A stretch of DNA of 38,752 nt. Source: a virus. Location of the stretch: IMG/VR virus record IMGVR_UViG_3300025645_000176, positions 1 through 38,752 of that record; one strand, given 5' to 3'. Every line of letters begins with the position of its first letter. The stretch's first letter is position 1. The notes below the pieces were generated by a model that saw only the letters and a program-made list of their open reading frames with translations, searched no databases and was not told the DNA's origin. Shown in pieces: positions 8,721 through 35,968 of the stretch. A program made the position numbers and the translations under genes.

Positions 8721-10247
8721 CTAGTAGTTGGTTACTCCGTCTACGAGAGAACGTGTAACGAATGAAGTGTGCTTAACAAGCTCTTTGTATTTCGGGTGAG
8801 CTTCCAAGCAGATGTACTGAAGTCCATCATGAGGATGGGAGAAGTCATTCTTATCGGGGACGTCTTTGTACTGTGCTTCGCCAGTGACCTGCTTACGCTT
8901 ATAGGCGTAGCCAGCGTTAAAGCCTCGACGGAGACGTGAACACTCAGTCTTATCTAAGACGAACTTAGGGTTACCTGCTTCCGTAGTTTCGGAGAGGAAG
9001 AACCGAACCGCATTAAGACGTAGCTCAATGTGGTTAGACTTAGCGGGTCGCGTCTCGAACCAATCAGCGAAGATGCCGTCTTTGGAGTTATTCAAGACGT
9101 CGAAGTAGTTCAGAGAGTCTTTGGATAGACCATGACTTGCTATGCCGGAGGGGTCACCGACAGAGATGATTTCCCACTTAGGACTCGGGTAGTACTTCTC
9201 TAGGTAAGGTCGGACAAAGGTACGAGCAAAGTCATGGAGACCGATGTTGTCAGCGACAATCTCTCGGAGGACTCGCAGTTGACCAGAGTTGGTCTTCTGG
9301 GCAATGATGCAGGCTTCCCCGCCTTTACCCCAATCCCATCCGAGGAGGATCGGATAGCCAGGGACAGCGCCAAGCTTACCGTTGAAGACGTGGACGTCAT
9401 CCATCCATTGGCGACGATAGACAGCCTTGCCATTAGAGGTAACACCGAAGTCACCCATGAAGAGGACTTTGACCTGCTCTTTGGTCATGGCACCTACTTT
9501 GTCCAGGTAGTACTTCTTAGGACCAATGCCTATATAGTCGAAGTTCTCTCCTTTAGGGTTTAGTGCGTAGCCTAGCTCAGAGCTGGGGTCTTCTATCACG
9601 GCCCCTGGTTGTCTCCATAGGTCCCAACCTGGAGGTGGCTGCTTGAACTTCTGAGCCATCCATCCGTCTTCATCCGGCGGGTTAGAGTCAATCAGCAGAG
9701 CCGTTCGAGTAATGGGGTTCTTAACATCGACGGCATCAACGGGAGCAGGGTATCGACCTATACGACTCAATACCGTGGTTACGACGTCGAAGTCCATATA
9801 GCCACCTTCGTTGATAAAGGCACCTGTTAGCTCCAGCGACTTAAGGTTCTCGTAATCCTGAGGTTTACTAATAGCCATGAAGATGAACTCAGCATTCATC
9901 AACGTTCCATCACCGAGTCGGTCAGTCCATCGTATTCTCATAGGAGCCGACTCGGTGTAGCGGCAGGTAGCTTCGTTAGGTTTCAGCCAGAGCTTGAAAG
10001 ACTCCCATACTGTGTTACGAAGCTGAGGGTAGGTCTCTCGGACGATGAGCCATCGAGTAGACCTTTTATTGTACTTGTCAGGTGCCTGGCCAGCAGCGAG
10101 CCGTATCAACTCCAGGATAGACATAGTGGACTTACCGGACCCTACAGGTCCCATCACCATTCGGGTATCAGCGTTGGACATGTGAAATGAATAGGCCGTC
10201 GGTGAGGGGATATAGGTTACTTCAGTGGGACGATGTTCAGTAATCAT
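8721..10247 (-). CDS. terL: Terminase large subunit
   Basis: A 508-residue DNA-packaging ATPase and nuclease. A Walker A motif, MGPVGSGKST, lies at about residues 32-41. A Walker B-like LTGAFINEGG at about 140-149 carries the catalytic acid. The nuclease half starts with LLGWDWGKGG near residue 302, whose Asp is the expected first metal ligand, with ISVGDPSG further on and HPHDGLQY near the end supplying the last acidic site. The length is normal. It docks on the portal, encoded immediately downstream, and pairs with the small terminase encoded about 680 bp upstream on the same strand. A small plus-strand gene sits between the two terminase genes, which is unusual. Confidence 0.92.
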   Translation of the reverse strand: MITEHRPTEVTYIPSPTAYSFHMSNADTRMVMGPVGSGKSTMSILELIRLAAGQAPDKYNKRSTRWLIVRETYPQLRNTVWESFKLWLKPNEATCRYTESAPMRIRWTDRLGDGTLMNAEFIFMAISKPQDYENLKSLELTGAFINEGGYMDFDVVTTVLSRIGRYPAPVDAVDVKNPITRTALLIDSNPPDEDGWMAQKFKQPPPGWDLWRQPGAVIEDPSSELGYALNPKGENFDYIGIGPKKYYLDKVGAMTKEQVKVLFMGDFGVTSNGKAVYRRQWMDDVHVFNGKLGAVPGYPILLGWDWGKGGEACIIAQKTNSGQLRVLREIVADNIGLHDFARTFVRPYLEKYYPSPKWEIISVGDPSGIASHGLSKDSLNYFDVLNNSKDGIFADWFETRPAKSNHIELRLNAVRFFLSETTEAGNPKFVLDKTECSRLRRGFNAGYAYKRKQVTGEAQYKDVPDKNDFSHPHDGLQYICLEAHPKYKELVKHTSFVTRSLVDGVTNY

Positions 10248-10437
10248 AGGAGTCCTTTTGGCTCATGAGTGCGAGAGCAGTTTGTGGGGCTCTAGCAGAG
10301 CTGCAAGGGGTTCGTCAAGGGGACTAAAGTAAATATAACGGCACAAGAGTTAGCGTTAATAGAGTAGACTCCATTTTGACGCCCATCCTATGGAGGATGA
10401 CTGTCGAGGTAGATGTGCCTCTTTAAGGACCATAGAT

Positions 10438-10584
10438 ATGACTAACGATACACCTGGGGAACTAATCGCTTATCTTGTGTTAGAAAGCATCCAAGGCTTA
10501 GACATCGATGCCAGTGCCTATGAGCTTATAAAGAAAGCTATGGCCGAGGAGTTTGATCAGTACGAGGAAGAGAGAGCAAAATAG
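10438..10584 (+). CDS. Small acidic protein, unknown (48 residues)
   Basis: ATG 10438 has AAGGA 8 bases upstream, and a strong terminator follows 30 bases after the stop, so this looks like a complete one-gene unit. An in-frame upstream ATG exists (10390) but lacks the better ribosome site. The protein is helical and acidic (MTNDTPGELIAYLVLESIQG, ending FDQYEEERAK). It lies on the plus strand between the two leftward terminase genes, so late transcription would run across it antisense. I recognise no family. Small acidic phage proteins often bind host enzymes, but that is only a guess here. Confidence 0.55.
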   Translation: MTNDTPGELIAYLVLESIQGLDIDASAYELIKKAMAEEFDQYEEERAK

Positions 10585-10613
10585 CCTGAGGGCGGTCCGT
10601 TAGAGACAAACAG

Positions 10614-10638
10614 AAAGGCTCCTTTAAGGGGCCTTTTT
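10614..10638 (+). terminator. Rho-independent terminator after the 48-residue gene
   Basis: AAAGGCTCC pairs with GGGGCCTTT around TTTAA, followed by TT. A near-copy, including the downstream TTTTTGTTGTCTG, occurs at 13097-13119 after another plus-strand gene. Confidence 0.85.
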
Positions 10639-10929
10639 GTTGTCTGGTGGAAAGACGGGTAGGGGCGCTGATAGCCTCAGACTATGGTTCAGTGTGTATT
10701 TGGTAATATATTTCTAAATAAAATATGGAATAGGTATATTAGAAAGAGCTAATAGGGGTTTCTGAAAATACTGTATGAGCCGCGTAGACCCATGCCAGAG
10801 GCGATGACCTCGCGAGTTCTACGGGGGGTGGGGGGGCTGTATGCCTATCCAGTAGACCTGTATAAGCAACCAGTAGTACACCCCTGGAATGACCCCAACT
10901 GATCCGTAGTCAGCCGCTACCCCTTGCTA
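10639..10929. other. Non-coding stretch beside the small terminase gene
   Basis: There is no convincing gene here. It contains an AT-rich tract (about 10700-10745, with tatatttctaaataaaatat) and a G-run, ggggggtggggggg, at about 10820-10835. It follows the small terminase stop in the late transcript. The position next to terS makes it a reasonable place for a packaging recognition site, but no motif proves that. Confidence 0.4.
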
Positions 10930-11571
10930 TCAGTGACTATCAGGCGTTTGTGGTGCCTCTGATGGTCCCTTTCGGGCGGCTGCTAGTGACGCACTATTGA
11001 TCGGCTGGATCATATCGCCGTCACCTGGTGCTGGCAGCTGCATATTGATGTAAACCGGGGCACCTTTATCAGCGCTTTCGCGGTCCCACTTCATGTAATT
11101 GGCTAGTATTTTAGATGCTGTATTGGCCGCGGTTGTGTCAAAACGGTAGTCTCCCTTGTCCGTAACGGCACCGAGACATAATGCAGGCAGGTAGAACGGA
11201 TCGACCTCATTGGGCTCTTTCGGAACCCTTCTAGTAAACTCCTGGCCCTGGTGGTTATATGTGCGCAGCTTGCTGATGTCATCAGGTGTCGCAGTAGATC
11301 GAGCCATAAGCGTAAGCATCACGTTATTCTTTGACTGTTCCAACTGATGCTTCTTGATGCTCTCTAGCTCACTGATAGCCGCCTGAACTTCCTCCTGCTT
11401 TAATAGACTACTCACCTGCGCAAACCACCTGCGATCTGCATACCCTGCCCGACGTGCTGCATCCTGGCCGTTGTATCGTTCTACATAGTACCGCACGAAC
11501 TGCTGCCTCTGGGCACTAAGCGCATCCAGGTTAGGGGTATTGAATACCTCAGCTATCGAATTGAACATCAT
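10930..11571 (-). CDS. terS: Terminase small subunit
   Basis: A 213-residue protein with the N-terminal DNA-binding pattern of the Terminase_2 family: LSAQRQQFVRYYVERYNGQD, then AARRAGYADRRW and VSSLLKQEEVQAAISELE (residues about 18-70). This helix-turn-helix domain recognises the packaging start. The remainder is an oligomerisation region and a loose C-terminal tail. ATG 11571 has AAGG 9 bases upstream; a second ATG follows directly. It is the first gene of the leftward late block, downstream of two predicted phage promoters (12626 and 13650). An intact T7 gp18 would be far shorter, another sign that the packaging module is not T7-derived. Confidence 0.85.
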   Translation of the reverse strand: MMFNSIAEVFNTPNLDALSAQRQQFVRYYVERYNGQDAARRAGYADRRWFAQVSSLLKQEEVQAAISELESIKKHQLEQSKNNVMLTLMARSTATPDDISKLRTYNHQGQEFTRRVPKEPNEVDPFYLPALCLGAVTDKGDYRFDTTAANTASKILANYMKWDRESADKGAPVYINMQLPAPGDGDMIQPINSASLAAARKGPSEAPQTPDSH

Positions 11572-11619: not shown

Positions 11620-11648
11620 TTGACAGGTATCGGGATAGACACTACTAT
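11620..11648 (+). promoter_or_regulatory. Sigma-70-type promoter for the 11685-13074 operon
   Basis: A perfect -35 (TTGACA, 11620-11625) is followed by a 17-bp spacer and TACTAT (11643-11648). TATCGGGATA lies inside the spacer, and CTATCGGT overlaps the -10 and recurs at 11867-11874, suggesting an operator. The first ATG is 37 bases beyond the -10. Confidence 0.7.
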
Positions 11649-11921: not shown

Positions 11922-12596
11922 ATGGCTAACTTTCACATCACTCGCATAAGCTCGAACAAGAAGACCGGTCCGATCCCTGTAACGACCACATCTAAAGACT
12001 CATGCCCGACTACCTGTCCCCTCATCAATGCAGGCTGCTATGCAGACCTAGGACCGCTTGGGGGTCATTGGAAGAAGGTTAGCGAAGGGGAAAAGAGAGC
12101 TATTGACGAAGGCGCCTTCCTCTCTGCTATCAAAGCATTACCGAAGAAGCAGCTATGGCGGCACAACCAGGCAGGGGATCTGCTGCAGTCGACCCCTGGG
12201 GTTATCGATGTGGGCTTTCTCGGTCGACTAGTGAAGGCCAATAAGAACAAGGCGGGCTTTACATACACTCACCATCTGCTGACCCCTAGTAACGTCCAGG
12301 CTATTCGGTCCGCCAATGCTGCAGGCTTTACAGTCAACCATAGCGCCAATACGAAGCACGAAGCAGTAGCAGCCTTTAAAGAGTTCGGCTTGCCTACTGT
12401 AACTATCCTGGCAATGGATGCACCCAACGTCGAAGTCATCGAAGGGGTAAAGGTCGTCGCCTGTCCTGCAGAGAAAAGCGACCAGGTGAATTGTTCTAAC
12501 TGCGAATTATGCGCCAAGCCTGCCCGAGACTATGTCATAGGCTTTAGGGCTCATGGTACCAGGAAGGCCAAGGCTAATTTGATCGCCGTGGGGTGA
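11922..12596 (+). CDS. Cysteine-rich phage/mobile-element protein of unknown function
   Basis: A 224-residue protein with two cysteine clusters: SCPTTCPLINAGCYAD at residues about 27-42, and ACPAEKSDQVNCSNCELCAK at about 179-199. The first, C-x3-C-x6-CYA, recalls metal- or Fe-S-binding motifs such as those of radical-SAM-like phage proteins, but no standard CxxxCxxC is present. Between them is a probable alpha/beta domain (VTILAMDAPNVEVIEGVKVV). The phrase KTGPIPVTTT at the start matches a family I recall from phages and mobile elements, with no known function. It is the longest gene of the plus-strand operon within the control region. Metal binding is likely from the cysteines; activity is unknown. 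Confidence 0.75.
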   Translation: MANFHITRISSNKKTGPIPVTTTSKDSCPTTCPLINAGCYADLGPLGGHWKKVSEGEKRAIDEGAFLSAIKALPKKQLWRHNQAGDLLQSTPGVIDVGFLGRLVKANKNKAGFTYTHHLLTPSNVQAIRSANAAGFTVNHSANTKHEAVAAFKEFGLPTVTILAMDAPNVEVIEGVKVVACPAEKSDQVNCSNCELCAKPARDYVIGFRAHGTRKAKANLIAVG

Positions 12597-12625
12597 TTTA
12601 GAGCCTAAAAACTCTCCTGCCCCTT

Positions 12626-12648
12626 CTATACTCCCTCTCATAAGGATT
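12626..12648 (-). promoter_or_regulatory. Predicted phage RNA polymerase promoter, leftward copy 1
   Basis: On the minus strand it reads AATCC followed by TTATGAGAGGGAGTATAG. The core CTTATGAGAGGGAGTATAG is identical in three places. The TATAG ending matches the T7 and SP6 promoter class, giving a predicted start at G 12626, followed by AAGG. It directs transcription toward terS and the late genes. On the plus strand, its AAGGA also serves as the ribosome site of the 12656 gene. Confidence 0.7.
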
Positions 12649-12655
12649 CGACACC

Positions 12656-12883
12656 ATGACAACTGCAACTGCAACTGCTACTAAGTCGCACGCTCTAGCT
12701 AAATTCATCAGCGATCCACTAGACCCCAATACGCGACTATATGGGACCACATCCCGGCAATACATTATCAAACGCCGCTTGCTATGTTTCGAGTGTCCCG
12801 AGCTGTCAATCATACGGCCAACCCTATGGGAGCTAAAGGTGGCTATCCGCACCTATATGATCCAGGGAGCAATAGCTGCGTGA
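12656..12883 (+). CDS. Small hypothetical protein (75 residues)
   Basis: ATG 12656 has AAGGA about 9 bases upstream. The first residues are low complexity (MTTATATATKSHALAKFISD), then SRQYIIKRRLLCFECPELSI and LWELKVAIRTYMIQGAIAA, basic and probably helical. It sits in the plus-strand operon behind the Cys-rich gene, and its stop overlaps the GTG of the next gene (GTGA), so the two are probably translated together. I recognise no family. Confidence 0.6.
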   Translation: MTTATATATKSHALAKFISDPLDPNTRLYGTTSRQYIIKRRLLCFECPELSIIRPTLWELKVAIRTYMIQGAIAA

Positions 12884-13074
12884 ACATTCACTCCTATCGT
12901 GCGGAAGCGATCGACCACCTAACACGACTACACGGCGCTATTGAATACAACCCAAGGCTCAATCTATTGTTCGCAGCAGACGGCGAAGCCTTCGAGATCA
13001 GACTAACACCTGGTGGCTACCTGATCGACCGGGTGATGCCTCAGGCGACTAAGGGAGTCTATAAGCATCCCTAG
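12880..13074 (+). CDS. Small hypothetical protein (64 residues)
   Basis: I place the start at GTG 12880, which overlaps the previous stop and follows GGGAG by about 11 bases; longer in-frame upstream starts would lie wholly inside the neighbour. The product (MNIHSYRAEAIDHLTRLHGA..., ending ATKGVYKHP) has a compact alpha/beta look (LNLLFAADGEAFEIRLTPGG). It is the last gene before a terminator 23 bases downstream. No family recognised. Confidence 0.55.
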   Translation: MNIHSYRAEAIDHLTRLHGAIEYNPRLNLLFAADGEAFEIRLTPGGYLIDRVMPQATKGVYKHP

Positions 13075-13096
13075 ACCCCCGCCCACTATCGACTAC

Positions 13097-13119
13097 AAGG
13101 CTCCTAAAGGGGCCTTTTT
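13097..13119 (+). terminator. Rho-independent terminator ending the 11685-13074 operon
   Basis: AAGGCTCC pairs with GGGGCCTT around TAAA, followed by TTT. Nearly identical to the 10614-10638 terminator, including downstream TGTTGTCTG, so the two share an origin or were copied. Confidence 0.85.
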
Positions 13120-13382
13120 GTTGTCTGCCTGTTATCCCCCCGCCATCCTATCGTCGACCCCATAAGCGACCCTATAAGCGCCACTATCCGCCCCTCTGAT
13201 GCATTCCACCAGCTACCCCTAGTACAGCTATAGGTATATAGCACAGATGCCCTCACAGACGCTCCTAGGAGGCCTCAGGCCTATCTGGCAGCTATTGACC
13301 AGGCCTTGTTTTTAGGGGCAGGTCAGGAATTTCAGGGTTTGAGAGGGAGGGTGATCTGAGGGTGATACTGCCTATCTGCCTC

Positions 13383-13451
13383 TTAGAGCGTATCTAGCGG
13401 AGTTGGCTATTAGAGCGTATCTAGACCATTTACCTCTTAGAGCGTATCTAG
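13383..13451 (+). repeat. Three iterons, TTAGAGCGTATCTAG, exactly 27 bp apart
   Basis: Perfect 15-bp copies start at 13383, 13410 and 13437. Copies 1 and 3 also share CTC before and CGG(A/G)GTT after. Each has TAGA/TCTA inverted ends around a GCGTA centre. The constant period suggests a protein array: integrase arm sites, replication-initiator iterons or operators. Confidence 0.85.
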
Positions 13452-13597
13452 CGGGGTTCATTAGCAGCAGCAGAGAAGACTGCTCTATTAGGCTCATCCT
13501 ACGCTGCTGCCTCTACAGTACCTCTACAATATCTAACTGTTCCCTCAGTACCCCATCCTGTATCTAACTCTAACTAAGGAGGTCTCAGCTAGGCAAT

Positions 13598-13627
13598 CTA
13601 TAAGATATCTTATAGTAATCTTATAGT
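13598..13627. promoter_or_regulatory. 18-bp palindrome with an extra half-site (candidate operator)
   Basis: CTATAAGATATCTTATAG (13598-13615) is a perfect palindrome. A further ATCTTATAG copy follows at about 13619-13627, and CTATAAGAT recurs at 13784-13792, overlapping the -10 of a promoter for the MarR-like gene. This fits binding sites of a dimeric regulator, most simply the MarR-like protein itself. Confidence 0.6.
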
Positions 13628-13649
13628 TATCCATCTGCTCTCCATCACC

Positions 13650-13668
13650 CTATACTCCCTCTCATAAG
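13650..13668 (-). promoter_or_regulatory. Predicted phage RNA polymerase promoter, leftward copy 2
   Basis: An exact copy of CTTATGAGAGGGAGTATAG on the minus strand, with predicted start G 13650 followed by GGTGATGG, close to the T7-type +1 GGG. Transcripts run left through the plus-strand operon into the late genes. Confidence 0.7.
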
Positions 13669-13698
13669 AACCCCTTGAATCTAGGGGGCTGTAGCCTA

Positions 13699-13727
13699 TT
13701 GCGTAAAGGTATGTTAATGACTACTAT
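13699..13727 (+). promoter_or_regulatory. Candidate host promoter P1 of the MarR-like gene
   Basis: TTGCGT (13699-13704), 17-bp spacer, TACTAT (13722-13727). The -35 is weak, the -10 matches 4 of 6 and equals that of the 11620 promoter. Confidence 0.45.
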
Positions 13728-13769
13728 GCGCGCCTTACAAATCGATACAGAAATGTACTACTCATAGTC

Positions 13770-13797
13770 TTGCGTTATGTCAACTATAAGATAGAAT
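13770..13797 (+). promoter_or_regulatory. Candidate host promoter P2 of the MarR-like gene
   Basis: TTGCGT (13770-13775), 16-bp spacer, TAGAAT (13792-13797, 5 of 6). The CTATAAGAT half-site overlaps the spacer and -10, so a bound regulator could block it. The gene starts 63 bases downstream. Confidence 0.5.
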
Positions 13798-13859
13798 TAC
13801 TTCTGTAAGGCAGAGTTCTCGGAGTATGTACTCAGGGAATTAATAGAAGGGGCATAATC

Positions 13860-14267
13860 ATGTCAACATCAAACAGCACGAGTAAAGTACGTTATATAAC
13901 TAAGGCTCTAATGAACTTAAGAGAGTCTATGGGTGTCAAATTTGAGCTAGGTCAGCTACTTGTTCTCGCAAAGATCTACGAGAAGGGTGAACGGGGTGTC
14001 CCGATGGTTGATCTAACTAAAGAACTTAAGGTAGGCCACGCATTGATTGGGCGTAACGTTACCTTGTTCTCCGCTGGACCGAATAAAGAGGGGGCTCACC
14101 GCAACATGGTCGAGGTCTTTTATGACCCAGCGCATCCTAGGTCTAAATCTGTTAGAATGACCGAGGAAGGAAAAGAGCTATTATCGGCTTTTTTAGGAGA
14201 CATGCGCCCTTATTATACAGAACCTGTTAAAGTAGAGGCACCATCCGAGGATACAATATCTCGTTAG
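13860..14267 (+). CDS. MarR-like winged-helix transcription regulator
   Basis: A 135-residue protein with the MarR layout. A helical start (KALMNLRESMGVKFE) leads to the first helices (LGQLLVLAKIYEKGE). The recognition helix-turn-helix is MVDLTKELKVGHALIGRNVT, and the wing MVEVFYDPAHPRSKSVRMTE is followed by EGKELLSAF, the typical wing-to-helix signature (D-x-R-x-K-x-V-x-LT-x-x-G). It binds DNA as a dimer. It lies between the control region and attP-integrase, upstream of which are two host promoters and a palindromic half-site over the nearer -10. This makes it the leading candidate for the lysogeny repressor or a switch regulator. A classical phage repressor of CI type was not found. A ribosome site (AAGGGG) precedes the ATG. 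Confidence 0.75.
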   Translation: MSTSNSTSKVRYITKALMNLRESMGVKFELGQLLVLAKIYEKGERGVPMVDLTKELKVGHALIGRNVTLFSAGPNKEGAHRNMVEVFYDPAHPRSKSVRMTEEGKELLSAFLGDMRPYYTEPVKVEAPSEDTISR

Positions 14268-14291
14268 GTCACTGGTAGACATCAACGTACT

Positions 14292-14340
14292 CTGACTTGT
14301 AATCAGTAGGTCCCGAGTTCGACTCTTGGTGTCGGCACCA
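14292..14340 (+). other. Putative attP: 3' half of a tRNA-Thr(UGU) gene
   Basis: The sequence runs from the anticodon arm through the T arm to the CCA end. The loop CTTGTAA has anticodon TGT at 14298-14300 and is closed by CTGA/TCAG. The T arm is CCGAG-TTCGACT-CTTGG (14313-14329), then TGTCGGC, A and CCA. The 5' half is absent: the bases where the acceptor strand GCCGACA should lie do not pair. It sits 90 bases upstream of the integrase. This is what is expected when integration at a tRNA 3' end restores the host gene, so a host tRNA-Thr(UGU) gene is the likely attB. Confidence 0.82.
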
Positions 14341-14429
14341 AACATTGACCTGACAGGTATGTAATTACTAACTTTTAGTCCCTTTTTGAGCATTGTAGAT
14401 GCCAAAAGGGTACTTTTGAGGGTACATAC

Positions 14430-15608
14430 ATGGCCAAGTTCACAGCAGCATACATCAAGACATTAGCCCCCCGTTTAACCCCCTATTTCGTCACTGAAAC
14501 AGACTCACCAGGTTTTAAGCTTAGAGTCTTACCTTCCGGCACACTTAGCTTCTACTTCATCAGCAAGTCTGAAAGCCTAAAACAATCAATTATCCTAGGT
14601 CGCTATCCTGAAGTTTCCATAGCATCTGCTAGAGAAATCTATCGATGCCTAAGAGACAAGTCACTATCGACTAAGAGAGACATCGACAGTATGAATCTGC
14701 TCTCAAATGGTGTAGATTCTGTCGAAACGGCTATTAGACGGTATGAACAGACCGCATTGACCTCCCTACGTGAAAAGACACAGCTTGACTATCGCGGACA
14801 TATCAAATTCCTCCGTAAATTCTTCTTAGAGACTAACTCCAGCACTTCAGCTATCAACGTAGTGTTCACTAGAGCTAATCTCCGCCCCTACATCAAGGAA
14901 ATAGCCCTTCGTCATCCCACTACGGCGAAGCAGAGAGCCGTTGTCCTGAACCGCATTATGGACCCCTACTTAGACTCAGGTGTTATCCTAGAAGACCCCC
15001 TAACACGTCTTAACATCAAAGGGGCCTGTAAGCCTCGTCAGCGCTTCCTAGACAAAGAGGAGCTACGGCTACTGTTCGCAGCAATGGCGACCTCTCAGGC
15101 TCACCCAGCGACGCTCAAAGCTATCCGCTTGCAACTGCTGACAGGTCTCCGCCCAGGGGAAGTATGTCGATTGCAGCGTAAGAACATCGTAGGAGCCTCT
15201 ATCAGCCTCCTGGGGAGTGAAACGAAGTCTAAGCAGCCATTGATGCTTCCTTTGTCTTCCGTCGCTCTCAGCCTCTTACAGGAGCTTACAGAGCCTACTG
15301 GTAAGTCCCAGTATCTACTAAGCACTGACCGTCGCTTTCGGCACCAGCTTTCCCTAGCGACTGTCGAGCAGTGTCTAGAGCGTCTCTGTGTAAGAAGCGG
15401 GATACCTCATGCCACTCCTCATGATCTGCGACGAACAGTAGCAACACACCTAGGTGCTTTGAAGCATAACTCTGCTGTCATCGATGCCGTTTTAAACCAT
15501 GCCCCAGTGGGTGTTACGCAGCGTCACTACAATCACTACGACCATGCGGAAGAGAAGGCCCTAGCCATGGGGGCTGTAGAGGACTTAATGACCTCATTAG
15601 GCCTCTAA
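14430..15608 (+). CDS. int: Tyrosine recombinase integrase (P4-like)
   Basis: A 392-residue site-specific recombinase. The N-terminus (KFTAAYIKTLAPRLTPYFVT, LGRYPEVSIASAREIYRCLR) is the arm-binding domain found in P4-type integrases. A core-binding domain covers about residues 95-195. The catalytic domain shows the full set: R in LLTGLRPGE (about 241), K in SETKSKQ, HDLRR (about 331-335), H in VLNHAPVGVTQRHYNHYD and the nucleophile Tyr in that same stretch. It should exchange strands within the tRNA-Thr-like attP just upstream. P4-type enzymes commonly use tRNA 3' ends. Integrase genes occur in a minority of T7-like phages. No separate excisionase was identified; the MarR-like protein or a small gene could do that job. 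Confidence 0.93.
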   Translation: MAKFTAAYIKTLAPRLTPYFVTETDSPGFKLRVLPSGTLSFYFISKSESLKQSIILGRYPEVSIASAREIYRCLRDKSLSTKRDIDSMNLLSNGVDSVETAIRRYEQTALTSLREKTQLDYRGHIKFLRKFFLETNSSTSAINVVFTRANLRPYIKEIALRHPTTAKQRAVVLNRIMDPYLDSGVILEDPLTRLNIKGACKPRQRFLDKEELRLLFAAMATSQAHPATLKAIRLQLLTGLRPGEVCRLQRKNIVGASISLLGSETKSKQPLMLPLSSVALSLLQELTEPTGKSQYLLSTDRRFRHQLSLATVEQCLERLCVRSGIPHATPHDLRRTVATHLGALKHNSAVIDAVLNHAPVGVTQRHYNHYDHAEEKALAMGAVEDLMTSLGL

Positions 15609-15631
15609 AATCCTTATGAGAGGGAGTATAG
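15609..15631 (+). promoter_or_regulatory. Predicted phage RNA polymerase promoter, rightward copy
   Basis: AATCC followed by TTATGAGAGGGAGTATAG, an exact inverted copy of the 23-bp element at 12626-12648. The predicted start is G 15631, 129 bases before the RNA polymerase gene. If correct, the polymerase transcribes its own gene and everything downstream to 28488. It starts one base after the integrase stop. Confidence 0.7.
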
Positions 15632-15669
15632 ACCTACCAGAGCAAATTGATTTCTTATAGATAACTACC

Positions 15670-15759: not shown

Positions 15760-18234
15760 ATGCGATTAACCAATAGCATGAGTGAACAGTTGAGCCTAGA
15801 GACCTGGACCTTGGAGACAAGAGCAGACCACTTAGAGAAGAGCCTATCTAGCAGAGGCGTCTTCGCCCTTGGTGGAGCGAGTGACCTCTTCGGAGATGAG
15901 CTGACAGCCCTTACAGAGACTATCCGAGCCTGGTGTAAAGCTGAGTCAATCAAGCGAGGACAGAAGCATGTTATCTATAAGATGCTTCAGAGCCTTAAGT
16001 ACGACGAAGTAGCTGGTATCGTCGTTAAAACGGTAATTACTAAGGTGTCTGGTAAGGATATGGCCGGTCTTTCCCGCCAGTCGTTGGCCGCTTCTATAGC
16101 TAATTCGTTGCAAAGTCACGTTGCTTATAGCGTTTTAGTGCAGAAAGACGAGAGATTGGCGCAGAAGCTAGCATTTGCCGCCAAAGCAGCGGCGGTCCCT
16201 CAACGCTCCAGGATAGAGCTAGAGATACGCAAAGCCGCGCAGCGTCTGGTTATTAAGGACTGCGGGGATACATTAGGGGCGCTCCTGGGCATCTCCAGCT
16301 CCCCAGCAGAGACAAAACACTACCTACTTCAGGTAGGTCACGCTCTATTAGCGCTCTATGCAACTACCTCTACTCTGTTCACTGAGCAGTACCGAGGCCA
16401 TAAGGACGTTATCCTAGTCAAACCTGCCGATTCCTTCCGAAGCTTTGTGCAGAAGCTGGCAACCGAACAGTTCGCAAGAGCAACAATCGCTCGGTTACCT
16501 ATGGTCGTCGAGCCGTTACCTTGGGACGGTGTGGAAGGTGGCGGTTACCTACTACCGACTTCACGCTACTCACTGATACAAGCACGCTCTGCTAACGCTC
16601 AACAGCAGCTCAATGCCCAGGAGATGCCTGCGTTCTATAACTCCATCAATGCCCTACAAGGGACTAAGTGGTCTGTAAACCGCTCCATCGCCTATGTCTA
16701 TCTACAGCTACTGCGTCAGGATGAAGGCGTTGCTGGGCTTCCTGTGCGGCTTACCAAGAGAGCTGTAGTCCCTTACCTTCCTTGGACAGGGACAGGAATG
16801 GACCATGCTGAGATAGAAGCGTACAAGGAGGCTCATCCTGAAGAGATGCAGGCCCTTAACAAATCAAGAAGAGAAGCACGAGCCACTAACGAGAAGAACT
16901 TAGCGTCGATGGTCCTGGAACAACAGAGACTGGGCGTCCTAAACATCATGAGAAAGTTTGACCACTTCTACTTCCCTTACTTCGCTGACTTTCGGGGTCG
17001 GATCTATGCTGCTGCTACTGTCGGCATCCTCTCCCCTCAAGGTGACGACATCAGCAAAGCACTCCTTCGCTTTGCGGAAGGCAAGCCGATTGGAGAGACA
17101 GGTGCCTTATGGCTAGGTCGCCACGTCTGTGGAACCTGGGGCAACGATAAGACTACTCAGATGAATAAAGACCTATGGGTTGAGTTCAACAGGGACTGGC
17201 TCGTCGCTTGCGCCCGAGACCCACTTAAGAATCGTGAGTGGATGAAAGCTGATAAGCCCTTCCAGTTCCTTGCCGCTATCATTGAGTACGCAGGTTATCT
17301 CGCAGAAGGTCCAGGCTTCGTCAGCCATCTTCCGATCAGCCAGGATGGCTCTTGCTCAGGTCTGCAACACTACGCCGCTATGCTTAGAGACGCTAAGATG
17401 GCAGCCAGTGTCAACGTGAGCCCCTCAGAGGAGCCTCAGGACATCTACAGCGTCGTTCTAGCCGCTTGCCATGCACTTGCTAAGGGTGACACTCAATCGT
17501 TCAAGGAGGAGGCTCTCAGTCGCTTGATCAGGAAGACGATTAAGCAGCCGGTCATGACGACGGCTTATGGCGTTTCCGATGGTGGGGTCCGCAAGCAGCT
17601 GCGGGTCAACATTAAGAAGCTGGTGGACAAAGGGGTAATGAAGGACTTTAAGGACAAGGAGGATTCCGCCCAATGTATTGGTTATCTCACGAGCTTGATT
17701 GCTAGAGCGAAGGGAACGGAGCTAACAGCAGCAATGGATGCTATGGCATGGATGGGAAAAGTGTGTGAGGAAGCTATCGATACAGACACTCCGATCTCCT
17801 GGGTCACCCCTGTCGGGTTCAAGGTAATCCCAGATTATAAGAAGGCGGGAACCAACAAAATCACATTCACATGCAACGGGCTTAAGCAGGAGATGCTCGT
17901 TCAAAAAGGGACTTCTCAGATTGACCGGAAGGCACACGTCCAGTCAATAGCCCCTAACTTCCTACACTCACTCGACGCCGCAGCATTGCAGCTAACCGTA
18001 GACTCTATGCGTGATAAGGGTTTCAAGGCATTTGCTATGATACATGACGACTTCGCTGTCCACGCTTGCGACACCGAGTTACTCAACAAGGTGCTAAGAG
18101 AGGAGTTCGTAAACCTGTATCAAGAGGACGTCTTACAGAACCTGGCAGATGGCCTTAGGGTGCCCCTGTTGGCTCCGAAGAGAGGCACGCTGGATCTAGA
18201 AGGAGTGAAGGATAGTCGCTATTTTTTCGCCTAG
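15760..18234 (+). CDS. Phage single-subunit DNA-directed RNA polymerase
   Basis: An 824-residue T7-type polymerase (T7 gp1 is 883). Key motifs are clear: DFRGRIYAAATVGIL (about residue 410), the first catalytic Asp in LPISQDGSCSGLQHYAAMLR (about 527), the O-helix region RKTIKQPVMTTAYGVSDGG with its Lys and Tyr (about 590-605), the APNFLHSLDAA segment, and the second catalytic Asp in FAMIHDDFAVHACD (about 761). It transcribes phage genes from its own short promoters. The likely ones are the three CTTATGAGAGGGAGTATAG elements; one lies directly upstream, suggesting positive feedback. GGAG lies about 11 bases before ATG 15760; ATG 15778 is a second possible start. In T7 this gene is read from host promoters, and a host promoter for the MarR-integrase transcript may serve here at first. 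Confidence 0.96.
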   Translation: MRLTNSMSEQLSLETWTLETRADHLEKSLSSRGVFALGGASDLFGDELTALTETIRAWCKAESIKRGQKHVIYKMLQSLKYDEVAGIVVKTVITKVSGKDMAGLSRQSLAASIANSLQSHVAYSVLVQKDERLAQKLAFAAKAAAVPQRSRIELEIRKAAQRLVIKDCGDTLGALLGISSSPAETKHYLLQVGHALLALYATTSTLFTEQYRGHKDVILVKPADSFRSFVQKLATEQFARATIARLPMVVEPLPWDGVEGGGYLLPTSRYSLIQARSANAQQQLNAQEMPAFYNSINALQGTKWSVNRSIAYVYLQLLRQDEGVAGLPVRLTKRAVVPYLPWTGTGMDHAEIEAYKEAHPEEMQALNKSRREARATNEKNLASMVLEQQRLGVLNIMRKFDHFYFPYFADFRGRIYAAATVGILSPQGDDISKALLRFAEGKPIGETGALWLGRHVCGTWGNDKTTQMNKDLWVEFNRDWLVACARDPLKNREWMKADKPFQFLAAIIEYAGYLAEGPGFVSHLPISQDGSCSGLQHYAAMLRDAKMAASVNVSPSEEPQDIYSVVLAACHALAKGDTQSFKEEALSRLIRKTIKQPVMTTAYGVSDGGVRKQLRVNIKKLVDKGVMKDFKDKEDSAQCIGYLTSLIARAKGTELTAAMDAMAWMGKVCEEAIDTDTPISWVTPVGFKVIPDYKKAGTNKITFTCNGLKQEMLVQKGTSQIDRKAHVQSIAPNFLHSLDAAALQLTVDSMRDKGFKAFAMIHDDFAVHACDTELLNKVLREEFVNLYQEDVLQNLADGLRVPLLAPKRGTLDLEGVKDSRYFFA

Positions 18235-20007: not shown

Positions 20008-20442
20008 ATGAAACGTAAGCTAAAGAATGCTTCGTTCCTCATCGTCTCCTGCACCAACACCCCCGCAACAAGCACATTCGATCTAGAGCATTTCAGAGCC
20101 GCACGGCTTAAAGAAGGCTTTAGCGATACCGGCTGGCACTACATCATCACTAGAGATGGCGGGGCGTACGCTGACTGTCCTTTGGATGAAGTAGGCACGC
20201 ATACACAAGGCCGTGACAGCGTAAGCGTTGGCGTCTTGTTAGAGGGCGGAGCAGGAGCAGATGGCAAGGTAGAAGCAAACTATACAGCAGCGCAATACGC
20301 GACTCTTAACATCCTGCTGTGGAATGTAAAACAGGTACACCCGCTAATTAATCCTATTGGTCTACATGACGTGAACCCCACGGCTAAACCTCACTTTAAC
20401 GTACTAGATTTCTTTGGAGAACATTATGACAACCCAAGCTGA
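20008..20442 (+). CDS. Inactive T7-lysozyme homologue (pseudo-amidase) in the gene 3.5 position
   Basis: A 144-residue protein with the amidase_2 / T7 lysozyme layout. Compared with the intact paralogue at 27147, the zinc ligands and catalytic residues are gone: FLIVSC has Ser14 in place of the first His, GWHY has Trp43 for the catalytic Tyr, and GLHDVNPTAKPHF replaces GHCDLDSGKTCPNF, so the second His, the Lys and the Cys ligand are not in place (His120 is one position off). The fold core (VSVGVLLEG) is kept. T7 lysozyme also binds and inhibits T7 RNA polymerase, and this gene has exactly the 3.5 slot, between resolvase and primase-helicase. The likely role is RNA polymerase control without cell-wall cleavage. 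AAGGA precedes the ATG. Confidence 0.8.
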   Translation: MKRKLKNASFLIVSCTNTPATSTFDLEHFRAARLKEGFSDTGWHYIITRDGGAYADCPLDEVGTHTQGRDSVSVGVLLEGGAGADGKVEANYTAAQYATLNILLWNVKQVHPLINPIGLHDVNPTAKPHFNVLDFFGEHYDNPS

Positions 20443-27146: not shown

Positions 27147-27554
27147 ATGAGATTCTTAGACTTAATAGTAGTGCATTGTTCAGACACACCTTCTGAACGA
27201 ACCGTCACAGTAGACGACATCCGAAAGTGGCATGTCGAAGAGCGAGGCTGGGATGATATCGGATATCATTATGTCATCTACCAGGACGGCTCGGTCCACA
27301 AAGGCAGAGCATTGGATGTCCCCGGTGCTCACGTCAGTGGGCATAATACTCACTCGATAGGAATCTGCTTGATCGGAGGATGGAAAGGGGCAGATGACTA
27401 TTCAGATCTACAGCTACGTTCTCTATCGGAACTGATTAGTAGCCTGAAGGTTTCTCTCCCTGATTCATCTCTTCAGGTTAAAGGTCATTGTGACCTAGAC
27501 AGCGGCAAGACCTGTCCCAACTTCGACGTTAGTGATTGGTGGCAATTCCAGTGA
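27147..27554 (+). CDS. N-acetylmuramoyl-L-alanine amidase (T7 lysozyme family), active form
   Basis: A 135-residue endolysin of the amidase_2 family. All functional residues of T7 lysozyme are visible: zinc ligands His10 (IVVHCS), His114 (VKGHCD) and Cys123 (KTCPNF), catalytic Tyr40 (IGYHYV) and Lys121. The strand SIGICLIGG is conserved. It should cut the amide bond between muramic acid and L-alanine and release progeny. It lies downstream of the polymerase, not in the gene 3.5 slot, which is held by an inactivated homologue (20008). It lacks a signal peptide, so a holin or other route is needed for export; late holin-like genes lie on the other strand. A GTGA overlap links it to the exonuclease gene. 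Confidence 0.92.
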   Translation: MRFLDLIVVHCSDTPSERTVTVDDIRKWHVEERGWDDIGYHYVIYQDGSVHKGRALDVPGAHVSGHNTHSIGICLIGGWKGADDYSDLQLRSLSELISSLKVSLPDSSLQVKGHCDLDSGKTCPNFDVSDWWQFQ

Positions 27555-28488: not shown

Positions 28489-28492
28489 ACGT

Positions 28493-28537
28493 AAAGCCCT
28501 CTATAGAATCTCTTATGAGACCTATAGGGGGCTTTTT
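28493..28537. terminator. Symmetrical terminator where rightward and leftward blocks converge
   Basis: AAAGCCCTCTATAG (28493-28506) pairs with CTATAGGGGGCTTT (28522-28535), 14 bp with one T-G pair, and is followed by TTT on the plus strand and AAA/TTT on the other. It sits 5 bases after the plus-strand stop and 4 bases past the minus-strand stop. The sequence can stop both strands. Its loop carries CTTATGAGA, the left half of the phage promoter motif. Confidence 0.88.
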
Positions 28538-28540
28538 GGT

Positions 28541-30670
28541 TTAGTCTTCGTATAGTTTTTCCATGAGAGGATCGTAAAGGCCCTCCTGCGCTCCTTGGAA
28601 AAACAGCTCTGAAGCAAGATCTGTATGTCCTAGAAGAGCCGGGGAGTCTCTGTATGTTTTCTTCCAGGCCTCTTTGAACTCCTTCGCATACTGAGCCTTC
28701 GCCGATCCTGTTAGCTCACCCGCTGCCATCTTCCGTGCAGTGCCTTCAAGGCCACGCTTCGCCAAGCTATCAGCTAGTCCTGATGTTATACGGCTCGCTG
28801 CAAAGATCTGAGCGAACTTATTGGTGAAAGATAGACGGGCTGCGGATGCTGCATATCCTATCATAGCATCCGCTGTGTCAGAGTTATTGCTTCCCTTCGG
28901 TTTCACTTTTGGACCCCGAAGTGAAGCAGCTTTGATTAGCGATTGGATGCCCTCTGCTCTCTCCGGGCCAAAGATAATGCCCTGTGCTTCGGGGGAGACC
29001 TTATCAATCATGGTCCTGAAGATGTTCTCATTGAACCGGGCACCGCCTCCTTCAGTGCTAGCCTTCTTAGACGCTTCTATTGCGTTAAGGATTAAGGTTT
29101 CTCCTACGGACTCCCAGGCCACTTTGCCTTCAGTGTCCATCAGCATCCGCTTCTTAATCTCAGCTAAGTCATCTTTATTCTTAGGTGCGAGGATTGCATC
29201 GAAGACTGTCTTGGGGTTATTGAGAAACTCCTTGTTAGCCGGGGTCATGTCAGTCGCTCTCTTAGCCCACTTTAATTCCCAACGAGAATTATAGTCCGCC
29301 ATTGATTTACGCCCTGCTCGATAGACCTCTAAGTCTTCCGCCCCAATGCCAGACTTAGCAACCGCCTCATCTATGTTGCTTTCTAAAGAGGCTCGGACGC
29401 TGCCCCAGAGCTTCTTCTCTGCCCCTGACATAGTTGGTTCATAAAGAGTATTGAGGGCTTGCTCTAGTTTCTTATACTTAACTAAAGTTATCCCCTCCTT
29501 CGTACCAAGCCCCATCACTGATTGCGGCCTGACATTCAGAAGACCAGCAGTCCTGAGATGATTCTGTATATCCTTAGCAGTGCTTCCTACCGCCCCTGAC
29601 ATATTCAAGCTAGGGCCAAGCACATCCTTAAGCCCCTGGTTCATTAGCCGACTTTCAAGTTGAACTGTCCGGGCAGCGTCAGAAGTGCCTTCCCACTTTT
29701 TATACGCCTCGCTTGAAGCCTCCAGGTCTTTACCCCGAACGTCCCGTAAAGTTTTCACGAAGTTATCTTGAGTGGTCTCACGGCTCATAGTAGTGGCGTC
29801 CGTACTGCCTGCTATGAAGCTCTCAGCCTTGTCCACTATCCCTCGTTCAACCGCAGCATCAGCAGCTAAGAGTATCTCTCTAGGCTCCCCACCTCCTGCC
29901 CTTATATTAAGCCTGTCATTGATCTGAGCATCATTGACTAAGGCGTCTCCTGCATTAATCTTATAGCCGCCGAATTCTTCCGTGAATGTCTGGGCCTTGT
30001 CCACAGCAGCTTGAGCAGCGTTAGGACCAATCGATGGGACTTTGTTTCGAGTGAGGTACTTGTTTAAGCCCCGAGACCCTGCCTCAGCTACAGAGCCGAA
30101 AGCTGCTCCTGCAACAGCTCCTCCAGCAGCATTACTAACACGCTCCCCAAAGTCACCTTCCTCAAAGACGCCTCTATAGACGGACTCTTCCAGCGCACCC
30201 GCTGCCATTGCAGCCCTGTATCCCGTCATCCCGGCTTTAGTAACTACAGCGCCTGCTCCTAGACCTAAAGGTACAGCAGGGAGGGTTTCGCCTACGAAGT
30301 TCCCCACGGCAGCCGCTGTTGAGCGGTCCGAGAGTTCTTTGAATTGGGCCTCTCGGGTATCCATACGCCCCTGTAGCATCGATAGGCCGTCATCATTCCC
30401 TGTCGCTCGATAGTACAGATCCTTAACGGCACCTCCGACATTATTAAGGCCGTTTGAGACGCCCTTCATGAACTTCTCGCCACCTCCCATCTGATCGTAG
30501 TGCATGTCATAGACGTTACTCATAGACTCTGCCTGTTGTTGGCTAGCAGTGGCTTGAGTGTTCTGATCTATCTGGGCCAGTTGCGTGTTGAAGTATCTAA
30601 CGGCGTCCTGGTCTTGGGCGGCACCTGCATTCGCTAGCCCAGCTTGGAGTTGTGCTTTAGTATATTTCAC
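28541..30670 (-). CDS. Large internal virion / DNA ejection protein
   Basis: A 709-residue protein, the last gene of the late block; GTG 30670 overlaps the previous stop (GTGA). A Gln/Asp-rich N-terminus (TQATASQQQAESMSNVYDMH) is followed by two Gly/Ala-rich hydrophobic stretches (FVGETLPAVPLGLGAGAVVT, GGAVAGAAFGSVAEAG; residues about 125-200), typical of ejection proteins that cross the membrane or form a channel, then a long helical body. T7 encodes gp14-16 for this role before the fibre; here the corresponding proteins follow the fibre. No muramidase motif is visible. Assignment from size, order and composition. Confidence 0.6.
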   Translation of the reverse strand: MKYTKAQLQAGLANAGAAQDQDAVRYFNTQLAQIDQNTQATASQQQAESMSNVYDMHYDQMGGGEKFMKGVSNGLNNVGGAVKDLYYRATGNDDGLSMLQGRMDTREAQFKELSDRSTAAAVGNFVGETLPAVPLGLGAGAVVTKAGMTGYRAAMAAGALEESVYRGVFEEGDFGERVSNAAGGAVAGAAFGSVAEAGSRGLNKYLTRNKVPSIGPNAAQAAVDKAQTFTEEFGGYKINAGDALVNDAQINDRLNIRAGGGEPREILLAADAAVERGIVDKAESFIAGSTDATTMSRETTQDNFVKTLRDVRGKDLEASSEAYKKWEGTSDAARTVQLESRLMNQGLKDVLGPSLNMSGAVGSTAKDIQNHLRTAGLLNVRPQSVMGLGTKEGITLVKYKKLEQALNTLYEPTMSGAEKKLWGSVRASLESNIDEAVAKSGIGAEDLEVYRAGRKSMADYNSRWELKWAKRATDMTPANKEFLNNPKTVFDAILAPKNKDDLAEIKKRMLMDTEGKVAWESVGETLILNAIEASKKASTEGGGARFNENIFRTMIDKVSPEAQGIIFGPERAEGIQSLIKAASLRGPKVKPKGSNNSDTADAMIGYAASAARLSFTNKFAQIFAASRITSGLADSLAKRGLEGTARKMAAGELTGSAKAQYAKEFKEAWKKTYRDSPALLGHTDLASELFFQGAQEGLYDPLMEKLYED

Positions 30671-35656: not shown

Positions 35657-35968
35657 TTACCACGGGACGCCGGAGGCTTTCACCGGTGCCATTTGTAGAT
35701 CAATGTTAGCCTGCAAGCTTGCCTCTGTAGCTTCCTGATCGATGCCATCTTCAAAGCACCAACCGAGAACAATCTCTTCGGTCAGCTCTGCGTAAGGCAC
35801 GAAGTCGGTAGCCTCTGGATCTGCGCTGAATCCGCAAGTACCATAGCTGCCTGCACTGAACTCGCCAGCGTCATCAGTAGCTGTACAGCGCCAGTGCGCA
35901 GTAATGACAGAGTTGTTTTCTGTCAGGTCGTATTCTAGGGTGGAGATTGTCCAGTTAAATGTAGTCAT
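35657..35968 (-). CDS. Hypothetical marine phage protein (DUF7936-like)
   Basis: A 103-residue beta-rich acidic protein: FNWTISTLEYDLTENNSVIT, AHWRCTATDDAGEFSAGSYG, TCGFSADPEATDFVPYAELT. This pattern (W-x-I at the start, a YGTCGF motif in the middle, LTEE-x-x-LGWC near the end) matches a family I recall from many marine phages beside tail-fibre genes. It lies between the second fibre and membrane genes. Structural or fibre-associated role is possible; function unknown. Confidence 0.65.
   Translation of the reverse strand: MTTFNWTISTLEYDLTENNSVITAHWRCTATDDAGEFSAGSYGTCGFSADPEATDFVPYAELTEEIVLGWCFEDGIDQEATEASLQANIDLQMAPVKASGVPW

Follow-up and report, generated by a model that had tools for sequence, protein, structure and literature searches.

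Predicted promoters of a T7-class RNA polymerase on both strands around a regulator-integrase module in a two-armed phage genome

Results

The stretch of DNA analyzed here (38,752 bp, in the following referred to as the window) is the complete IMG/VR record IMGVR_UViG_3300025645_000176 and carries, besides two oppositely oriented gene arms, three identical 19-bp elements, CTTATGAGAGGGAGTATAG, which are very probably used as promoters by the T7-class RNA polymerase of gene 15760. The rightward arm runs from a regulator gene at 13860 via int, the polymerase, SSB, RusA, primase-helicase, ThyA, DNA polymerase A and exonuclease genes to 28488. The leftward arm starts with the small terminase gene at 11571; terminase, portal, scaffold, capsid and tail genes follow as far as the left end, and the arm resumes at the right end down to 28541. 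When the record ends are joined, the tail-fibre reading frame stays open only if one base is taken to be missing; as the frame is kept open on this condition, we probably have here a circularly permuted phage genome that is nearly complete.

A motif search allowing up to three mismatches returned three matches, every one with 0 mismatches, against an expected count of 0 (100 dinucleotide shuffles), at exactly the positions and on the strands given in the original prediction (copies A, B and C, Table 1). The statement that no further perfect copies exist was borne out as well: a scan of the whole window widened to six mismatches gave no site with one to four mismatches and a single site with five (8351, minus strand), which lies within the portal gene. 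Copies A and C even share 24 bp, AATCCTTATGAGAGGGAGTATAGA. All three copies lie outside plausible genes: copy A was indeed found between int and the polymerase gene, copy B in a noncoding stretch of ~785 bp and copy C in a 59-bp gap with small open reading frames (ORFs) on both sides (12596/12656). The copies had furthermore been described as a divergent switch, of which the opposite orientations hold; the copies are not placed back to back, since the MarR-like regulator gene, an attP-like tRNA fragment and int intervene between B and A.

For comparison, Pseudomonas phage LUZ100 (OP329100), whose promoters were mapped by ONT-cappable-seq, shows the order MarR-like regulator, integrase, promoter phi1 and polymerase (PMC10134795). 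Relatives of the window were obtained by alignment searches with the terminase and the primase-helicase and comprise G12 (contig 3300029317_000004), a prophage found inserted in a tRNA gene and showing a 47-bp att repeat, G22 (3300002137_000205) and G23 (3300047666_000570), both with direct terminal repeats, and G09 (3300047668_001167), which is without the control region. A single-protein search with int gave no relatives, the corresponding search with the polymerase only relatives of 27-37% identity and other architecture, and a terminase search of GTDB genomes one 6.9-kb contig of a metagenome-assembled genome in which no polymerase match was found. G12, G22 and G23 are two-armed like the window, with polymerase and replication genes rightward and terminase-to-tail genes leftward, and each of them has a private element of different sequence before the polymerase gene and before the small terminase gene. 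When the pre-polymerase gap was compared with the whole genome in the window, G12, G22 and G23, its longest repeats had their counterparts in all four cases in the stretch that precedes the small terminase gene (19-38 bp versus ~12 expected).

In G12 this element is AAAGTGCTTGCCTTAAGAAC, located at 1403 (+), 4247 (+), 4319 (+) and, with one mismatch, 39586 (-); a second, near-palindromic element follows 20-60 bp downstream of it at both ends. The G12 repeat TACTAATAGTCCACTATAGAGG, which ends in CTATAGAGG, was considered as the promoter and rejected, being a near-palindrome downstream of another directional element; AAAGTGCTTGCCTTAAGAAC was preferred because a further copy follows the polymerase gene, an arrangement also seen in LUZ100. 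The contig L087, of a further relative, starts with AAAGTGCCACCCTTAAGAAC upstream of its small terminase gene, which differs from AAAGTGCTTGCCTTAAGAAC only at -9 to -7 and thus inside the block from -11 to -7 that is read by the specificity loop (739-770) of T7 RNA polymerase (PMC5937735); the pattern AAAGTGCNNNCCTTAAGAAC was found in IMG/VR only in the G12 contig and L087. The G22 element, (C)AAAAGGTCGAA(C)TATA(G/A), occurs at 38944 (+), 36680 (-) and 36499 (-), i.e. with the same count of one rightward and two leftward copies as in the window, and its copies end in TATAG or TATAA. In G23, a palindromic element is present on both sides of the polymerase gene and also 53 bp upstream of the small terminase gene. 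The genes to be transcribed lie ahead of all 10 element copies of the window, G12 and G22.

Read in the manner of a T7 promoter, the 19-mer consists of an AT-rich TTAT (-17 to -14), the block GAGAGGGAG (-13 to -5), TATA (-4 to -1) and G at +1. Our own alignment on the start position, with the T7 consensus taken as given in PMC10134795, yields one layout for LUZ100 (AATTA-CCACACAG-GTAT-G), T7 (TAATA-CGACTCAC-TATA-G), G12 (AAA-GTGCTTGCC-TTAA-G) and the window (TTAT-GAGAGGGAG-TATA-G). Aligned with the LUZ100, G12 and G22 elements, the 19-mer has an AT-rich part around -17 to -13, a recognition part from -12 to -5, a TATA-like part from -4 to -1 and a purine at +1, and its three identical copies are each directed toward the genes that they would serve. 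The T7 recognition block CGACTCAC does not occur in the 19-mer; it characterizes the promoters of T7 itself and was not required of the class, since LUZ100 and the relatives have other blocks along with their other polymerases.

The polymerase itself is encoded in the same genome and belongs to the T7 class of single-subunit enzymes. The AlphaFold2 model of the 15760 product (pLDDT 83) reaches a VIA Z of ~47 against T7 RNA polymerase, the catalytic residues D529, K595, Y603 and D763 are invariant across 18 relatives, and the model places a beta-hairpin (694-721) where T7 has its specificity loop. The polymerases of the relatives (G12, G22, G23, G09 set) are only 32-33% identical to that of the window over the alignment, and the specificity loops of the four polymerases of the window, G12, G22 and G23 differ from one another.

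Table 1 Features of the window (positions in bp; a dot marks features without assigned strand).
Feature	Position	Strand	Evidence and remarks
Copy A, predicted rightward promoter of the phage RNA polymerase gene	15613..15631	+	Exact match; 151-bp int-polymerase gap; predicted start G15631; slot matches mapped phi1 of LUZ100 and the private repeats of G12, G22 and G23
Copy B, predicted leftward promoter	13650..13668	-	Exact match; predicted start 13650; slot as the leftward elements of the relatives
Copy C, second predicted leftward promoter	12626..12644	-	Exact match; predicted start 12626
T7-class single-subunit RNA polymerase, 824 amino acids	15760..18234	+	Pfam RNA_pol 1.4e-96; PHROG 414 8.8e-186; PDB T7 RNA polymerase 1.3e-82
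MarR-like winged-helix regulator	13860..14267	+	PHROG 9665 transcriptional regulator, E 2.9e-5; weak similarity and position
Perfect 18-bp palindrome CTATAAGATATCTTATAG, candidate operator	13598..13615	.	Dyad fraction 1.0 (shuffle p 0.0055); located at +36 to +53 of copy B
Candidate operator half-site CTTATAGTTATC	13620..13631	.	+20 to +31 of copy B
Candidate operator half-site CTTATAGATAAC	15654..15665	.	+24 to +35 of copy A; TCTTATAGATAAC recurs at 15970
Candidate operator half-site	13779..13790	.	Upstream of the MarR-like gene
attP-like fragment, like the 3' part of tRNA-Thr(TGT)	14275..14340	+	Rfam tRNA 26.1 bits, below gathering, E 0.059; anticodon by eye
Tyrosine integrase	14430..15608	+	Pfam Phage_integrase 2.1e-22 and Arm-DNA-bind_3
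Large (8721-10247) and small (10930-11571) terminase, first leftward genes	8721..11571	-	Terminase_2 8.5e-12; PHROG terminase large 8.8e-29
Rightward early-type genes (DUF7227 protein, small ORFs)	11922..13074, region about 11.7-13.1 kb	+	Would be crossed antisense by leftward transcription starting at copies B and C
Promoter-like site of host type, TTGACA-17-TACTAT, for the rightward early genes	11620..11648	+	10/12 consensus positions
Intrinsic terminator ending the early genes	13097..13116	+	Predicted
Hairpin terminator, probably bidirectional	28489..28541	.	-27.2 kcal/mol (+), -23.9 (-), T-rich tails; convergent junction of the arms

Discussion

Position and orientation of the elements are kept among the relatives while their sequence is not, as is to be expected of promoters that follow their own diverged polymerase. 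We regard this comparison, which was made on sequences, as the decisive support for the predicted promoter function; together with the mapped phage promoter between int and the polymerase gene of LUZ100, it sustains the assignment to the phage polymerase made in the original prediction. A number of points have to be held against the assignment. The +1 base of each 19-mer was set by analogy, a distance of 1-2 kb separates the leftward copies from the first leftward gene, and the IMG/VR searches gave no closely related phage that shares the motif of the window. In G12, the distinction between promoter and operator rests on symmetry, orientation and position and is a judgement, as the dyad symmetry of TACTAATAGTCCACTATAGAGG was not significant by shuffling. 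Furthermore, the spacing between recognition block and TATA varies by one base among the G22 copies, and the promoter part of the palindromic G23 element is not delimited. The exact 19-mer was found in no IMG/VR contig besides the window. A degenerate search with CTTATGAGANNNAGTATAG hit 33 contigs, which were rejected as chance matches because none of the 33 has any homologous protein.

It is unlikely that the 19-mers are instead operators of the MarR-like repressor or of another phage regulator, although they flank the regulator-int module and repeated operator-like sequences occur at both ends in G12 and G22, too. The 19-mer is without dyad symmetry (best fraction 0.33, shuffle p 0.96), yet a separate perfect palindrome is situated near copy B; the dyad symmetry expected of MarR-type operators is found at 13598-13615 and not in the 19-mer itself. 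Copy C is 1.2 kb away from the regulator gene and has no palindrome in its vicinity, the orientation is always toward genes, and position and layout fit the mapped LUZ100 phage promoter. Even less probable is a conserved site of another kind, such as a host promoter, a replication origin or a packaging signal. T7-type promoters can serve as replication start points too, and iteron-like repeats are close by; the -35/-10 hexamers of a sigma-70-like promoter (16-18 nt spacing) were, however, not called at any of the three 19-mers, and three outward-pointing copies on two strands suit transcription better than packaging.

Known integrase arm sites are found within a few hundred bp of the core. An integrase with an arm-binding domain and the attP-like fragment do lie between the copies, but the nearest 19-mer is ~0.6 kb and the farthest 1.7 kb away from this fragment, one of them being past the int gene, and G23, which gave no match to the integrases searched, still has a repeat in the equivalent slots. 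Arm-type or other recombination sites around attP are hence the least credible explanation of the 19-mers.

Taking the 19-mers as promoters, host RNA polymerase would make the first phage polymerase molecules, and from copy A the polymerase would then express itself along with the rest of the 13-kb rightward replication arm. Leftward transcription would start at copies B and C, antisense through the early genes first and then into the terminase, head and tail genes, and the two arms would converge at the terminator near 28.5 kb. That the leftward copies drive the packaging and structural genes, as originally predicted, is thus retained with regard to direction and refined in that they are located 1-2 kb upstream, so that the rightward early genes would be crossed first. 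The same antisense crossing is to be expected from the layout of G12 and G22 and not from that of G23; as these transcripts would be antisense to the early genes, early-gene shut-off through transcriptional interference is possible. Three promoters running the whole genome are consistent with the sequence, host-type promoters such as that at 11620-11648 aside; host-type promoter-like sites are no commoner in the window than in shuffles.

With respect to lysogeny, the MarR-like repressor would probably keep A and B off via operator-like sites 20-55 bp downstream. The 13860 protein can be aligned with a G12 protein (29%) and with the MarR protein of LUZ100 and the helix-turn-helix (HTH) protein of Rhizobium phage Pasto (21-22%), the gene order being shared; an AlphaFold2 model of this protein on its own was of low quality (pLDDT 38) and was not used. 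The perfect palindrome and the related CTTATAG half-sites, all candidate operators, lie ~20-55 bp 3' of B and ~25-35 bp 3' of A. Inverted-repeat tests downstream of all promoters were notable at copy B of the window and at L087 only, for which reason the operator function is inferred rather than asserted. The notion of the 19-mers as a switch is to be divided: they are its predicted promoters, whereas its control probably does not lie with the 19-mers alone and involves distinct operator-like sites (CTATAAGATATCTTATAG and related ones) near the MarR-like gene.

The tRNA-like fragment between the MarR-like gene and int is the probable attP. Since it is situated between A and B/C, and in view of the layout of the G12 prophage, A and B/C would be at opposite ends of the integrated form and point inward. 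In the G12 contig (L099-L101), the prophage occupies a tRNA gene, the anticodon of which was read as Val GAC, next to a threonyl-tRNA synthetase-like gene; lysogeny thus occurs in this lineage. Only tentatively, and with rather more doubt than confidence, we propose an integrase-bearing lineage that combines a T7-type transcription/replication arm with a non-T7 virion arm and has few polymerase promoters around one regulator-attP-int switch, antisense early shut-off and a repressor acting just 3' of the promoters. In such a lineage, the inward-facing promoters at opposite ends of the prophage would leave the polymerase unable to transcribe the host chromosome.

LUZ100 is the closest analogue with mapped promoters, and its self-amplification has been proposed to be under MarR control (PMC10134795). 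It shares with the window the gene order MarR-like regulator, tRNA, integrase, phage promoter, T7-type polymerase, SSB, endonuclease, amidase, primase-helicase, DNA polymerase and exonuclease, phi1 occupying the slot of copy A in the int-polymerase gap. In contrast to the window, all LUZ100 genes are on one strand, there are no leftward promoters, the virion and terminase genes are of the T7 type, and the eight annotated phage promoters are of other sequence (ATTACCACACAG..ATGG). T7 (TAATACGACTCACTATAG) has in common the single-subunit polymerase and the promoter layout of AT-rich part, recognition part, TATA and +1 G; it is strictly lytic, with ~17 promoters in one direction, another recognition block and a polymerase ~30% identical. 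Rhizobium phage Pasto and Bordetella phage BB8 exhibit an integrase-polymerase cassette (with an HTH regulator in Pasto) and homologous replication genes, but in one-directional genomes with T7-type virion genes, and all named integrase-bearing T7-like phages examined are one-directional.

For the other arm, related large terminases (30-33%) are found in Cronobacter phage Ss1, Vibrio phage VA-RY-3, Pasteurella phage Pmp11 and Methylophilales phage MEP301; the replication and structural arms of Ss1 and VA-RY-3 are in opposite orientations. These four gave no match to the T7-class polymerase, nor did any of six named phages with related large terminases, and in the phage collection the window terminase matched non-T7 podoviruses only. 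As to Autographiviridae, the window has the phage-encoded single-subunit polymerase and T7-type replication genes, but a leftward structural arm instead of a one-directional genome with T7-type virion and terminase genes. The divergent three-copy layout was not found in the named phages examined, a survey that was not exhaustive. T7-class promoters and the int-promoter-polymerase cassette are already known; the new variant is the arrangement of three divergent copies in a hybrid phage that bears an integrase.

T7-type transcription is the textbook case of a one-way, strictly lytic programme, and here it apparently operates with three promoters in a two-directional, integrase-bearing genome. 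The system would allow direct tests of how a runaway, self-transcribing polymerase is silenced in a lysogen, and the relatives offer several diverged polymerase-promoter pairs for studies of specificity loop/promoter co-evolution and as orthogonal transcription parts.

Some further features of the region and its relatives were observed. Between the early-gene terminator and copy B, the noncoding interval 13380-13451 holds three iteron-like repeats of the CTYTTAGAGCGTATCTAG type with a 27-bp period, and the equivalent interval of G22 has a different 23-bp tandem repeat (35815-35900). Near-identical rightward terminators (GGGGCCTTTTTGTTGTCTG) at 10626-10648 and 13107-13129 bracket the small terminase gene and the early-gene region. 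ArdA-like antirestriction proteins were recognized by eye among the early genes of the relatives (L100, 18346-18999; L075, 523-1023), in the stretch that leftward transcripts would cross antisense. The rightward arm of the window contains two different Amidase_2 genes (20008-20442 and 27147-27554). Finally, the proteins of the 6.25-kb contig 3300006850_000452 (L074) are 100% identical to the terminase-to-capsid block of the window, and this contig probably derives from the same phage.

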